In this document: one piece after another, positions 4,177 through 10,641 of the stretch
Numbering within the stretch: the first letter of the stretch is position 1
How the letters are laid out: each line of letters opens with the position of its first letter
Virus record (IMG/VR): IMGVR_UViG_3300028836_000025
Span: 1-64,000 of that record
DNA: 64,000 bases
Source: a virus
Strand: one strand, 5' to 3'
Program-made: the position numbers and the translations under genes
Notes under the pieces: model-generated
What the model was told of the DNA's origin: nothing
Database searches by the model: none
The model's input: only the letters and a program-made list of their open reading frames with translations

Positions 4177-4334
4177 GTAGAGAAGACGTAAATAAGTATA
4201 TGAAGACAGATGGACCATACTGTCCATGGGAACATGCTTATCAATTAGCGAAACCACATTACACAAGAGAAGAGATCGATGAGATGCTATTTTGTGAAAT
4301 AGACGAGCTATTAAATCAAGAAGATGATGACTAG
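4173..4334 (+). CDS. Small acidic protein, 53 aa, unknown
   Basis: A 53-codon ORF beginning by ATGA overlap with paralogue B copy 2 and overlapping the next gene by 11 nt. It contains a central aromatic patch (GPYCPWEHAY) and an acidic C-terminus ending in EDDD. No family recognised. Confidence 0.55.
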   Translation: MSREDVNKYMKTDGPYCPWEHAYQLAKPHYTREEIDEMLFCEIDELLNQEDDD

Positions 4335-4697: not shown

Positions 4698-5078
4698 ATG
4701 GATAAAAAAGAATTAAAGATCAAGCTGGAAGCACTTGAAGTCAACGTCGAAGTAAGACGTGATGAACTAGGTTTTGCTATGTCAGCCGCGCAAATAGCGA
4801 GAGAAGAGTTAGCTAACTTAGGTAAACCAGTGATAACTGAAGATGTCGCAAACCAAATAGTAAGTAAAGTATGTGAAGCTTTTCAAGAAGTATTATGTAA
4901 TATTGACTCTGACAGCATAGAGATCGATTTTAGCATGGACTATGATAACCGAATTGTAGTAGATGGTATTAGTGGTTTTGATGAGGTAGATGCAGATGAA
5001 GACTCTATAATGGAAATATTGATAGACACTTTCAATATAGACCACAGTAATAGCGAGGATGGTAACGATACAGATTAA
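4698..5078 (+). CDS. Acidic early protein with N-terminal coiled coil
   Basis: A 126-aa protein. Residues 1-40 are a predicted coiled coil (alternating Leu, Val, Glu and Lys) and residues 60-126 are strongly acidic. The start couples by TAATG to a 7-codon leader in the last control element. It is the last gene before the large structured RNA. Function unknown; the acid-rich C-terminal half could bind a basic partner. Confidence 0.7.
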   Translation: MDKKELKIKLEALEVNVEVRRDELGFAMSAAQIAREELANLGKPVITEDVANQIVSKVCEAFQEVLCNIDSDSIEIDFSMDYDNRIVVDGISGFDEVDADEDSIMEILIDTFNIDHSNSEDGNDTD

Positions 5079-5080
5079 GT

Positions 5081-5536
5081 GTTATACTTGAACTAGTAGA
5101 CGTTTTCGCGAGCTAGTTAGTATAACCAAACCCGGCGGGGTATAACGCAGACCCGGCGGGGTCACTAAGCGCAAAAAAGCTCGACGGAGCAAGGCTGTAT
5201 ATGCATGTGAACCCTGAAAATGGGGATAGCGGGTAGACAGTAACGGGTCGAGGTAGTCTATGCTACCGTAATGCCACCGAATAATAGGACGCAGGTAGCT
5301 CCTGTATTGAAGGCTAAGATCACGCAGAGAGTTGGGACCGCAGGCGTGCGGAGCCGGCAGTGACATGCCACAACTCTTTGCTTTAAAGGGGGTGAAAATG
5401 GTAACGCACACTGGACAGAAGACAGTATCTTCGCTGGAAGTTGGCCCGTAAATCTACAAGATAGTAGGCCACCAACTCAAGCAAGACAGTATCTCAAAGC
5501 ATTGCGTACGAGGGTTCGATTCCCTCCACCTCCACA
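5081..5536 (+). ncRNA. Large structured RNA 2 (candidate ornate phage RNA)
   Basis: About 455 nt with no plausible gene and clearly more G+C than its surroundings. Inverted repeats are dense: 5,081-5,088 with 5,119-5,126 stacked on 5,091-5,096 with 5,113-5,118; two identical ACCC-GGCG-GGGT hairpins (5,130-5,141 and 5,151-5,162); GCTC-GACG-GAGC (5,179-5,190); 5,252-5,256 with 5,263-5,267; 5,292-5,295 with 5,301-5,304; and a three-way junction closed by 5,329-5,334 with 5,371-5,376 that holds CCGCA-GGCG-TGCGG (5,338-5,351) and GGCA/TGCC (5,356-5,369). It ends in a tRNA-like domain, listed separately. Size and architecture recall the GOLLD/ROOL kind of phage RNA, but I cannot show homology. Confidence 0.6.
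5388..5534 (+). ncRNA. tRNA-like 3' domain of structured RNA 2
   Basis: A 7-bp acceptor stem (GGGGGTG 5,388-5,394 with CACCTCC 5,527-5,533) and a perfect 5-bp T-arm (5,510-5,514 with 5,522-5,526, loop TTCGATT). A helix at the anticodon-stem position joins 5,401-5,408 to 5,503-5,509 with one bulged A, an arrangement like tmRNA. Inside is a hairpin (5,439-5,444 with 5,472-5,477) whose loop carries AAGATA (5,458-5,463), complementary to TATCTT at 5,426-5,431. At 147 nt, and with no tag-peptide frame that I can identify, it is not an ordinary tmRNA or tRNA. An intron-bearing tRNA is the alternative. Confidence 0.55.
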
Positions 5537-5548
5537 AATTAAAATACT

Positions 5549-5836
5549 ATGAAAGATACAAATCAAGTACAAAAAGCCCTTGAATCCAAGGCAAAGAAAG
5601 AGCTGCAAAGAATTGTAGACGAGTTTGTTATATCACTAAATAAGCTAAACTCAACGTACCGCCAACCACCCTCGTACACTATGTGTGAGAGTCGTAACAC
5701 TGATGCTAAGGTTTTTAGCTATATTAGACTTGGTTGCTTAGAGACTATACTTCACGACATGCTCGTTGAGGCATACTTAAGCCCTATGGTACACAAAAAG
5801 ACACAAGAGCTATTAACAAAATTAGAATTACTATAA
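5549..5836 (+). CDS. Small basic protein, unknown function
   Basis: A 95-aa protein, helical by composition, with Lys-rich N- and C-terminal parts and a Pro/Tyr/Cys-containing centre (QPPSYTMCE). It is the first gene after the structured RNA and ends 1 nt before the next start. I do not recognise a family. Confidence 0.65.
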   Translation: MKDTNQVQKALESKAKKELQRIVDEFVISLNKLNSTYRQPPSYTMCESRNTDAKVFSYIRLGCLETILHDMLVEAYLSPMVHKKTQELLTKLELL

Positions 5837-8787: not shown

Positions 8788-10641
8788 TTGGACAAAATAA
8801 GGTTCATAGGGGAGAGTAGTCACGTAAGTGATATACAAGCGGCAACTATAGAAGAATGCCTGCTATACTGTAAGAGCAAGTCTGTTCTTGGGGTAGATAC
8901 AGAGACAGAGGGTCTTGATTTCACTCGTAATAAGATGATTATGCTCCAGATAGGAGATAAAGAAAGACAGTTTGTTATAGACACCCGAGTTATAGATATA
9001 ACACCACTTAAAGAGGTGTTTGAGAGTAAAGACATTATAAAAATCTTTCACAACGCTAAGTTTGATTATAAGTTCCTGAAAAGATGGGGCGGAATATCAA
9101 CTGAGAACATGTATGACACCTTTCTTGTAGAGAAGGTGTTAAATTGTGGTAAGAAAGATTTTAGGTACTCCTTAGCAGAATGTGTTAAGAGATACTTCAA
9201 CGTAGAGCTAGATAAAACTATTAGAAGTGGTTTTATAGGGCTCTCTACTAAACCCTATACGTTAGATCAAGTTGTATATGGTGCTGAGGATGTAGTATAT
9301 CTGTGTGATATACGAGAAAAGCAGCTACCGACACTACACTTGTACTCAGTACATCAAACCGCGAAGTTGGAGAACGCCGTAGTAAAAGTGTTTGCTGAGA
9401 TCGAATACGAAGGGTTAAAGATTGATAGGGAAAGATGGATTGATATGGCAGAGGAAAATGTTAAACTAGCCTACGAGCAAGAGTTAAAGCTTGATCGCAT
9501 GGTACTAGAGCATCCTCTTCTAACTCAGTACAACACCCCTATGCAAAGCGATATGTTTGAGCCTATCGAAATGGCTCGGCGTACCGCTATTAACTGGAAC
9601 TCTCCAGTACAGACGCTAGCTCTTTTTCGGAACCTAGTGCCTAGCTTAGAAAATGTAAACGGACAGAATCTTGGTAAATACGCCAAGTTTCATGAATTAA
9701 TAGATGAATATATACAATACAAAAAGCGAACTAAACTCGCGAACGCTTATGGAATTAAATTCTTTGATTATGTAAGCGAAGATGGGAAGGTTCACACGAA
9801 CTTCTCCCAGATTTTAGACACGGGTAGAGTGTCGTCTAGCAAGCCTAATATGCAGCAGATACCAAGTAATAATATCTTTAGAAATTGCTTTATAGCAAAA
9901 GATGGCTGGGTGTTTGTATCTTCGGATTACTCCTCACAAGAGTTAAACGTGATAGCGTACGGCAGTCAAGACCCTGTCTGGCTAGACGCCCTTGAAAGAG
10001 GGTTAGACCTCCACGGAGTATGCGCGGATCTAGTCTTTGAAGACAAGTGGAGAAATGCAGATGCCGTTGGTAAAAAGAAGTTACGTACTCAGATAAAAAC
10101 CATTAACTTTGGTTTAGCTTATGGTATGGGACCCTTTAAACTCGCTGAGACCTTATCTATATCTCAAGATGCAGCTCTAGAGCTTATAGAGAAATACTTT
10201 ACAGAATTCCCTAATATCAGGGCATTCCTAGAAAAGTTAGGGCAATATGGTAAAGATAAAGGATTTATTTGTACCTTTAGACCCTTCTTAAGACGAAGAT
10301 GGTTTAGTGACTGGTACCCAGGCATGCAGTATAGTAAAGGAAAAATGAGAGAGCTAGGTGCTATAGAGCGCGCTTCTAAAAACACCCCTATTCAGGGGTC
10401 AAGCGCCGATATGACTAAACTAGCTCTTATCTATGTCTATAATGAAATACAAGAATCTTGGTCTGACTCAGTAAAAATAGTTATGACTGTGCATGATCAA
10501 ATAGATACTATATGCCGTGAAGACGTAACTGAAGCTTGGAAAATACGCATGACAGAGCTTATGGAAAAAGCTGCGAAGGTTATAATACCCAATAGCCTGT
10601 TAAAGGCAGATACTAACATATCCCAAACATGGGAAAAATAA
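8788..10641 (+). CDS. Family A DNA polymerase with 3'-5' exonuclease
   Basis: Replicative polymerase, 617 aa. The exonuclease domain has VDTETEGLD (36-44), HNAKFD (88-93) and YGAEDVVYLCDI (164-175). The polymerase domain has motif A DYSSQEL (from Asp380), motif B KTINFGLAYG (437-446) and motif C VHDQ (568-571). Motif A departs from the usual DYSQIEL, and motif C has Gln in place of the more common Glu. There is no 5'-nuclease domain, as in T7. The start is TTG at 8,788: the next in-frame ATG (residue 50) would delete exonuclease motif I. It works with the downstream primase-helicase, ligase and SSB-like protein. Confidence 0.93.
   Translation: MDKIRFIGESSHVSDIQAATIEECLLYCKSKSVLGVDTETEGLDFTRNKMIMLQIGDKERQFVIDTRVIDITPLKEVFESKDIIKIFHNAKFDYKFLKRWGGISTENMYDTFLVEKVLNCGKKDFRYSLAECVKRYFNVELDKTIRSGFIGLSTKPYTLDQVVYGAEDVVYLCDIREKQLPTLHLYSVHQTAKLENAVVKVFAEIEYEGLKIDRERWIDMAEENVKLAYEQELKLDRMVLEHPLLTQYNTPMQSDMFEPIEMARRTAINWNSPVQTLALFRNLVPSLENVNGQNLGKYAKFHELIDEYIQYKKRTKLANAYGIKFFDYVSEDGKVHTNFSQILDTGRVSSSKPNMQQIPSNNIFRNCFIAKDGWVFVSSDYSSQELNVIAYGSQDPVWLDALERGLDLHGVCADLVFEDKWRNADAVGKKKLRTQIKTINFGLAYGMGPFKLAETLSISQDAALELIEKYFTEFPNIRAFLEKLGQYGKDKGFICTFRPFLRRRWFSDWYPGMQYSKGKMRELGAIERASKNTPIQGSSADMTKLALIYVYNEIQESWSDSVKIVMTVHDQIDTICREDVTEAWKIRMTELMEKAAKVIIPNSLLKADTNISQTWEK

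Follow-up and report, generated by a model that had tools for sequence, protein, structure and literature searches.

A phage RNA resembling the tRNA-like domain of tmRNA without its tag part, a candidate decoy of ribosome rescue

The early region of the viral DNA analyzed here (the window, 64,000 nucleotides within a virus record of 67,551 bases) contains a single GC-rich non-coding stretch, the plus-strand gap 5079-5548, with a GC content of 0.50 against approximately 0.36 in the flanks, and the question is what kind of RNA it encodes. The original prediction had placed a GC-rich structured RNA with a tRNA-like 3' end in this gap, and folding bears out the structure, as 5079-5545 reaches -153.7 kcal/mol (z -2.71), a value equaled by none of 100 shuffles. 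The sole ORF within the gap lies on the minus strand (109 codons, GTG start) and is taken as a chance frame. The structured region 5081-5536 is confirmed and is composed of two parts, of which the 5' part folds by itself with z -3.15 (0/100 shuffles as good) and the 3' part more weakly with z -2.22 (2/200). The region and its flanking genes are arranged as follows.

4698-5078, plus strand: upstream ORF of 126 aa, a syntenic marker, with a homologue at L156:2926-3294 (25% identity over the full length, MDYDN motif)
5081-5387, plus strand: 5' structured region of hairpin modules (z -3.15; modules in L276, L176, L223, and L233), either a separate RNA or a leader
5388-5534, plus strand: tagless tmRNA-like RNA, a tRNA-like domain with a 94-nt insert (RF00023, 41.1 bits; family model R1, 48.9 bits)
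5549-5836, plus strand: downstream ORF of 95 aa with no family match, starting 14 nt past A73

Judged by its capsid, portal, and terminase, the phage lies near the Flavobacterium elemo phages, Maribacter phage Panino, and Callevirus. Its DNA polymerase (8788-10641) has 71-75% identity to the enzyme of a different phage group, with which it has no neighboring gene in common, and looks recently horizontally exchanged; these polymerase-gene relatives have no other gene in common with the window and no homologous RNA. They are unrelated phages with tRNA-like elements of another make (L005:8707, L010:8809, L016:8664, L018:4961, and L019:794), having an acceptor TAGTGCG or TAGTGCA, C73, and a constant P2-like helix with a variable tip, and ARAGORN called none of them where it was run. 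The upstream-ORF homologue L156:2926-3294 likewise precedes a structured RNA: at the syntenic place in the relative G018 (L156:3295-3910) lies an RNA of approximately 600 nt (z -3.1) that holds a tRNA-like element with the acceptor CAGCUUG, without G3.U70. The G018 RNA is a mosaic with L186 (78%) and L191 (98% blocks). A AAATACGA..GATAATATA box was also seen directly before start codons (L156:3897-3938, L176 after 4480, and L233 after 4890) and looks like a promoter element of the phage group.

The tRNA-like end had been described as an acceptor and T-arm closing a helix placed as in tmRNA, and all three elements are found exactly (acceptor 5388-5394/5527-5533, T-arm 5510-5526, and P2-like helix 5404-5408/5503-5507). 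The parts of the 3' domain are listed below.

5388-5394, plus strand: acceptor stem 5' strand GGGGGUG, with G3 at 5390 and 7/7 pairs with 5527-5533
5395-5403, plus strand: D-loop-like segment AAAAUGGUA, aligned to the tmRNA D-loop and the relatives' AAAUGGUUAG, with the D-stem absent as in tmRNA
5404-5408, plus strand: P2 helix 5' strand ACGCA, with its partner at 5503-5507 in the fold; P2 covaries in the family
5409-5502, plus strand: insert of 94 nt with no tag frame, replacing the tmRNA message and pseudoknot part
5435-5479, plus strand: hairpin module GGAAGUUGGCC...GGCCACCAACUC in the insert, 86.7% to L201:3883-3927 (E 2e-9), with compensatory changes
5503-5507, plus strand: P2 helix 3' strand UGCGU (fold and family covariation), then an AC linker to the T-arm
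5510-5526, plus strand: T-arm GAGGG-UUCGAUU-CCCUC, from the RF00023 alignment, near-identical to the Callevirus tmRNA 3' end
5527-5533, plus strand: acceptor stem 3' strand CACCUCC, with U70 at 5531, followed by A73 at 5534

The acceptor thus carries the alanine identity wobble G3.U70 and then A73, and the D-loop has UGG and no D-stem. The mature RNA prior to CCA addition is predicted to be 5388-5534, with a length of 147 nt. The tmRNA model RF00023 aligns with 5388-5537 from its first to its last position, skipping the message and pseudoknot part, at 41.1 bits and E 7.2e-15, which is below its 47-bit cut-off. The Rfam covariance search of the window, which had been proposed as a check, therefore gave a clear sub-threshold tmRNA match and no family above its own cut-off. 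On sequence grounds, the 3' domain is homologous to tmRNA, and the earlier remark that there was no proof of homology is superseded (E 7e-15). The suggestion of a possible new class survives in part: a conserved structured RNA is present, but its homology to tmRNA, the very kind of hit that the original prediction had set against novelty, argues against a wholly new class. The suggested likeness to GOLLD and ROOL fell away, since covariance models of both, run with permissive filters, gave no match in 4900-5700 up to E 10. The permuted tmRNA model RF04321 reached 14.3 bits against 47 (E 1.4), and the acceptor strands stand in standard order. Other absences that had been stated are upheld: a group I intron core gave no match up to E 10 and the T-loop is uninterrupted, and ARAGORN reports neither a tRNA nor a tmRNA in the window, and no cloverleaf with an anticodon arm.

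The insert of 94 nt stands where tmRNA usually has a message and pseudoknot part of approximately 300 nt. It contains a hairpin GAAGA-CAGUA-UCUUC (5418-5432), the motif AAGACAGUAUCU twice, and the module 5435-5479, the homologue of which sits inside the tagless tmRNA of L201 (GUUGG/CCAAC, GUUAG/CUAAC). As foreseen, no tmRNA tag frame was found in the window, and neither the window nor 48 relatives have a degron-like frame that begins at a plausible resume codon. At the DNA level, a similarity search with the whole region matched tmRNA 3' ends alone, and one with the 5' part matched nothing. A 3' end that alone resembles Callevirus tmRNA DNA, together with the use of ssrA as a common integration site (PMC11915505), could point to a phage attachment site mimicking the host ssrA 3' end; however, an attachment site would have no use for the 5' acceptor strand, the D-loop, and P2, all present and covarying here, and the locus lies among early genes at a position conserved relative to the ligase gene in apparently virulent phages, all of which makes this explanation extremely improbable.

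A scan by the ligase gene brought in 79 further loci of related phages, in which the coding strand ahead of the ligase commonly bears tRNA-like elements. A mechanical, unbiased scan of these ligase relatives (0.81 Mb), which required a T-arm, an acceptor of 7 bp, and a GG in the place of the D-loop, gave 32 coding-strand matches, including 26 with G3.U70 and A73, while the other strand and five shuffles gave none. A scan restricted to the GGGCGTG acceptor is uninformative on G3.U70, and therefore the acceptor statistics are taken from the unrestricted ligase scan alone. RF00023 matched 27 of 30 relatives searched (E < 1e-10 in 25 of these), and its cut-off was passed by three relatives, each only of approximately 80 nt. 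The relatives' D-loop UGGUUUUGACG is the Bacteroidota tmRNA D-loop (compare Calle_1), from which it follows that the family descends from tmRNA. A strict-pattern search returned 46 stretches from IMG/VR; bacterial assemblies added three, and one of the assemblies, binned as Bacteroidetes, has two copies. In total, 60 unique tagless sequences of 68-123 nt were collected; the contigs L002, L026, L034, and L170 of metagenome 3300003540, 100% identical where compared, were not counted as independent, and all close relatives of the window RNA are metagenomic.

Several candidates were rejected during the collection: the exact-pattern matches L025 and L027 are chance coding matches, L130 with its copies and L132, the first matches of a compact-tmRNA pattern, are permuted tmRNAs by ARAGORN, L126 and L129, matches of the same pattern, were dropped as GC-rich chance, and RF00023 had no true match in the major-capsid-protein relatives, where one match is a partial tRNA. 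Other phage contigs yielded compact tmRNAs, of 213 nt (L140:1501-1713, minus strand) and 165 nt (L141:1501-1665), which clear the Rfam cut-off and have the long P2 and most pseudoknots missing. L127:201-299 is a 99-nt tmRNA-like RNA that overlaps a short ORF; its end lies at a gene with the start MARPK, and this start is duplicated upstream of the RNA.

The family model R1, from whose construction the window was left out, has a single match in the window, 5388-5534 (48.9 bits, E 1.5e-9). In a wider search, the scores of known tRNAs did not exceed approximately 23 bits and those of other tRNA-like elements 35.6, except for the tmRNA-like L127 and L136 and for L298, where a second copy scored higher. 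At 147 nt, the window member is longer than any relative (68-123 nt) and has an insert unlike the bare tRNA-like domain, and in some relatives the tRNA-like elements found at this place lack G3.U70. With moderate confidence, 5388-5534 is assigned to a tagless tmRNA-like RNA family of Bacteroidota phages, which is apparently undescribed as such in the literature searched. Current annotation misses these RNAs almost entirely: in the loci scanned, ARAGORN called none of them, and Rfam passes few.

Compensatory changes in related phage genomes, on which the fate of the proposed helices had been made to depend, are present in P2, the T-stem, and the acceptor. In 19 members from the ligase scan, the acceptor and T-stem are paired in 228/228 cells with double changes in 6 of 12 pairs, and their covariation score of 0.387 compares with 0.105 when shuffled and no more than 0.107 when slid. 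All six pairs of P2 are changed on both sides among 16 members, and permuting the P2 3' ends among 48 members lowered the mean helix from 6.21 to 4.64 (sd 0.14; 0/1000 as high). The invariance of G3.U70 is not decisive by itself, since in the acceptor pairs 2 and 5 vary as little as pair 3, and pair 7 nearly so. A host-acquired full-length tmRNA decaying en route to loss could also yield a tagless form by message deletion, and Callevirus relatives do have a normal 360-nt tmRNA; this account is contradicted by the 60 unique sequences, the covarying helices, and the intact acceptor and T-arm, and is very improbable.

The reading preferred here, given roughly even weight, is that the window RNA is a tmRNA reduced to its tRNA-like domain, which would act as an alanine-charged decoy titrating host SmpB. 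Host RNase P would cleave at 5388 and host 3'-end enzymes would finish the RNA, which host AlaRS could then charge via G3.U70. The charged RNA would be bound by host SmpB and EF-Tu and compete with host tmRNA at stalled ribosomes, where tagging and turnover of stalled products would be blocked because the RNA offers no template to resume on. The outcome in infection would be protection of phage proteins or a weaker host quality control. The region 5081-5387 would contribute exchangeable structured modules, either as a separate RNA freed by RNase P or as a leader. Phages can reportedly need host trans-translation, which would argue against blocking, and the elements of some relatives that lack G3.U70 are unexplained by a pure decoy model. 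SmpB is absent from the 24 phage records checked (control positive), consistent with a decoy and with a loss of function alike.

Evidence on charging comes from a further set of tRNA-like elements of approximately 42-46 nt noticed in the same survey (L197:762, L213:1139, L227:339, L228:454, L189:1590, and others). They consist of a hypervariable, always-paired acceptor of 6-7 bp, the core AAUGGUUAA, and a T-arm, often with an ORF shortly after, and they look like a second new class; ARAGORN reported none of those checked. Elements found via the core alone have an acceptor helix of 5-7 bp in 33/33 cases, and permutation gave a mean helix of 3.1 against the actual 6.3, with none of 2000 shuffles as high. 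The tagless family, on the other hand, keeps G3.U70 and most of GGGNGUG. Since the 42-nt acceptors vary but stay paired, the fixed G3.U70 of the family looks selected for identity and not for pairing alone, and this internal control favors charging. Longer tRNA-like RNAs with the acceptor TAGCTAG/CTAGTTA and exchangeable hairpins were also observed upstream of tagless tmRNAs (L201:3528-3710, L202, L214, L219, and L223), and a module GACGCGCACCGGT..GGTGCACCGCGC recurs in L201, L202, L219, and L222 in differing contexts.

The 5' part is made up of hairpin modules, several of which have homologues in other phages.

5092-5117, plus strand: UUUU hairpin AACUAGUAGACG-UUUU-CGCGAGCUAGUU, with homologues in L223 and L233 and compensatory pairs
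5127-5162, plus strand: two tandem GGCG-loop hairpins, a duplication of 20/21 nt
5179-5190, plus strand: hairpin GCUC-GACG-GAGC; L176 has GCAC-GACG-GUGC at approximately 4221-4232, with AAGGC next in both
5251-5292, plus strand: module GGUAG..CUACC, GUAAUGCCACC..UAGGACGC, 85.7% over 42 nt to L276 (E 1.3e-6)
5324-5381, plus strand: three-way junction domain with an 11-bp closing helix, ending 6 nt 5' of the tRNA-like domain

Two of these features had been named beforehand and were recovered: the GGCG-loop hairpins at 5127-5141 and 5148-5162, present in tandem duplication, and the three-way junction, which appears in the minimum-energy fold closed by 5324-5334/5371-5381. The stems of the UUUU hairpin read AACUAG/CUAGUU, AAUUAG/CUAAUU, and CAUUAG/CUAAUG across the window, L223, and L233, and the L276 version of the 42-nt module (GGUAU..AUACC) lies upstream of L276's own tagless tmRNA. 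No homologue of the whole 5' part was found and no module is universal; the sharing of modules with compensatory changes indicates that these RNAs are mosaics of exchangeable domains. GTTATAC at 5081 can pair with GTATAAC at 5120-5126 or with the further GTATAAC that the tandem duplication created at 5141-5147, and a choice between the two makes an alternative fold of 5081-5147 possible.

A closing helix 3-10 nt before the tRNA-like part, in the window the 11-bp helix of the three-way junction, occurs more often than by chance (17/47 members at p <= 1/30, with approximately 1.6 expected). This finding bears on the main rival to the decoy, namely, that the tRNA-like domain is punctuation, a processing signal alone, with charging irrelevant. 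Cleavage by host RNase P at 5388 and by 3' enzymes after 5534 would then release two products, the structured RNA on the upstream side and the mRNA on the downstream side. Punctuation agrees with such closed hairpins or domains just upstream, with the location of the domain directly 3' of a structured RNA and 14 nt 5' of an ORF, and with the 42-nt acceptor and T-arm elements, which have hypervariable acceptors and an ORF next and are close to a minimal RNase P substrate. Processing, however, needs neither G3.U70 nor the GGGNGUG acceptor nor P2, yet the family keeps them while the 42-nt acceptors drift, and we consider this explanation rather unlikely.

The recurrence of structured domains directly upstream of the tRNA-like domain would also suit a single multi-domain RNA of approximately 455 nt in which the 5' modules do the work, with the tRNA-like domain serving as a stable cap at the 3' end or as a docking part. 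Modules common to several phages and the tRNA-like element in the syntenic 600-nt RNA of G018 speak for it; RNase P should part the two regions, though, and most relatives have short tRNA-like RNAs, with upstream modules that are different or absent and none universal, which leaves a single large RNA a good deal less probable than punctuation.

Returning to the decoy, it can be placed in a wider and more tentative picture, in which marine Bacteroidota phages carry a fast-evolving, exchangeable tRNA-like kit with an alanine-pair branch that may be a widespread inhibitor of trans-translation and a 42-nt branch serving another purpose. Within this kit, the window member would combine the inhibitor branch with swapped structured domains. 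This suggests that blocking of ribosome rescue could be a common phage strategy in a major marine bacterial group and, if true, would give these phages an RNA-based countermeasure against a quality-control system that is nearly universal in bacteria.

Among known systems, GOLLD and ROOL are likewise large structured phage non-coding RNAs, often near tRNAs (PMC12286853), but they differ in having no covariance match here, and the window's tRNA-like domain belongs to the RNA's own architecture. The tmRNA of RF00023 shares the G3.U70 acceptor, the D-loop without a D-stem, P2, the AC linker, and the T-arm, whereas it has a tag frame, a message domain, and four pseudoknots in approximately 360 nt vs. 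147 nt in the window. Mitochondrial and plastid tmRNAs without a tag frame are similarly reduced and non-coding (PMC11915505), although the mitochondrial form is usually permuted, and the window RNA is a phage RNA in standard order. Callevirus (Cellulophaga phage Calle_1) and Panino have distant capsid homology to the window phage; the Calle_1 tmRNA has a near-identical 3' end of T-arm and acceptor but a full length of 360 nt, and that of the Flavobacteriia phage Panino (L168:27557-27889) differs in being permuted, with a predicted tag GKVMNVSFAPTVRQFA.

The closest counterpart is found in mycobacteriophage DS6A, whose tmRNA is little more than a tRNA-like domain (PMC4131195; PMC11915505); in passages of these papers citing Mao 2009, a DS6A-like RNA is described as strongly inhibiting E. 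coli tmRNA, perhaps via SmpB titration. A 2025 database also holds nine standard-order tmRNA sequences without a coding part (PMC11915505). Compared by description, the DS6A and window RNAs are both phage-encoded, complete tmRNA tRNA-like domains with the message part missing. DS6A is a single case from an actinobacterial phage, and in the literature found, the tagless phage tmRNA is a curiosity of this one mycobacteriophage, whereas the family described here comprises 60 unique Bacteroidota-phage sequences with a covarying P2 and exchangeable inserts, to which the window RNA adds its 94-nt insert and a structured 5' region.
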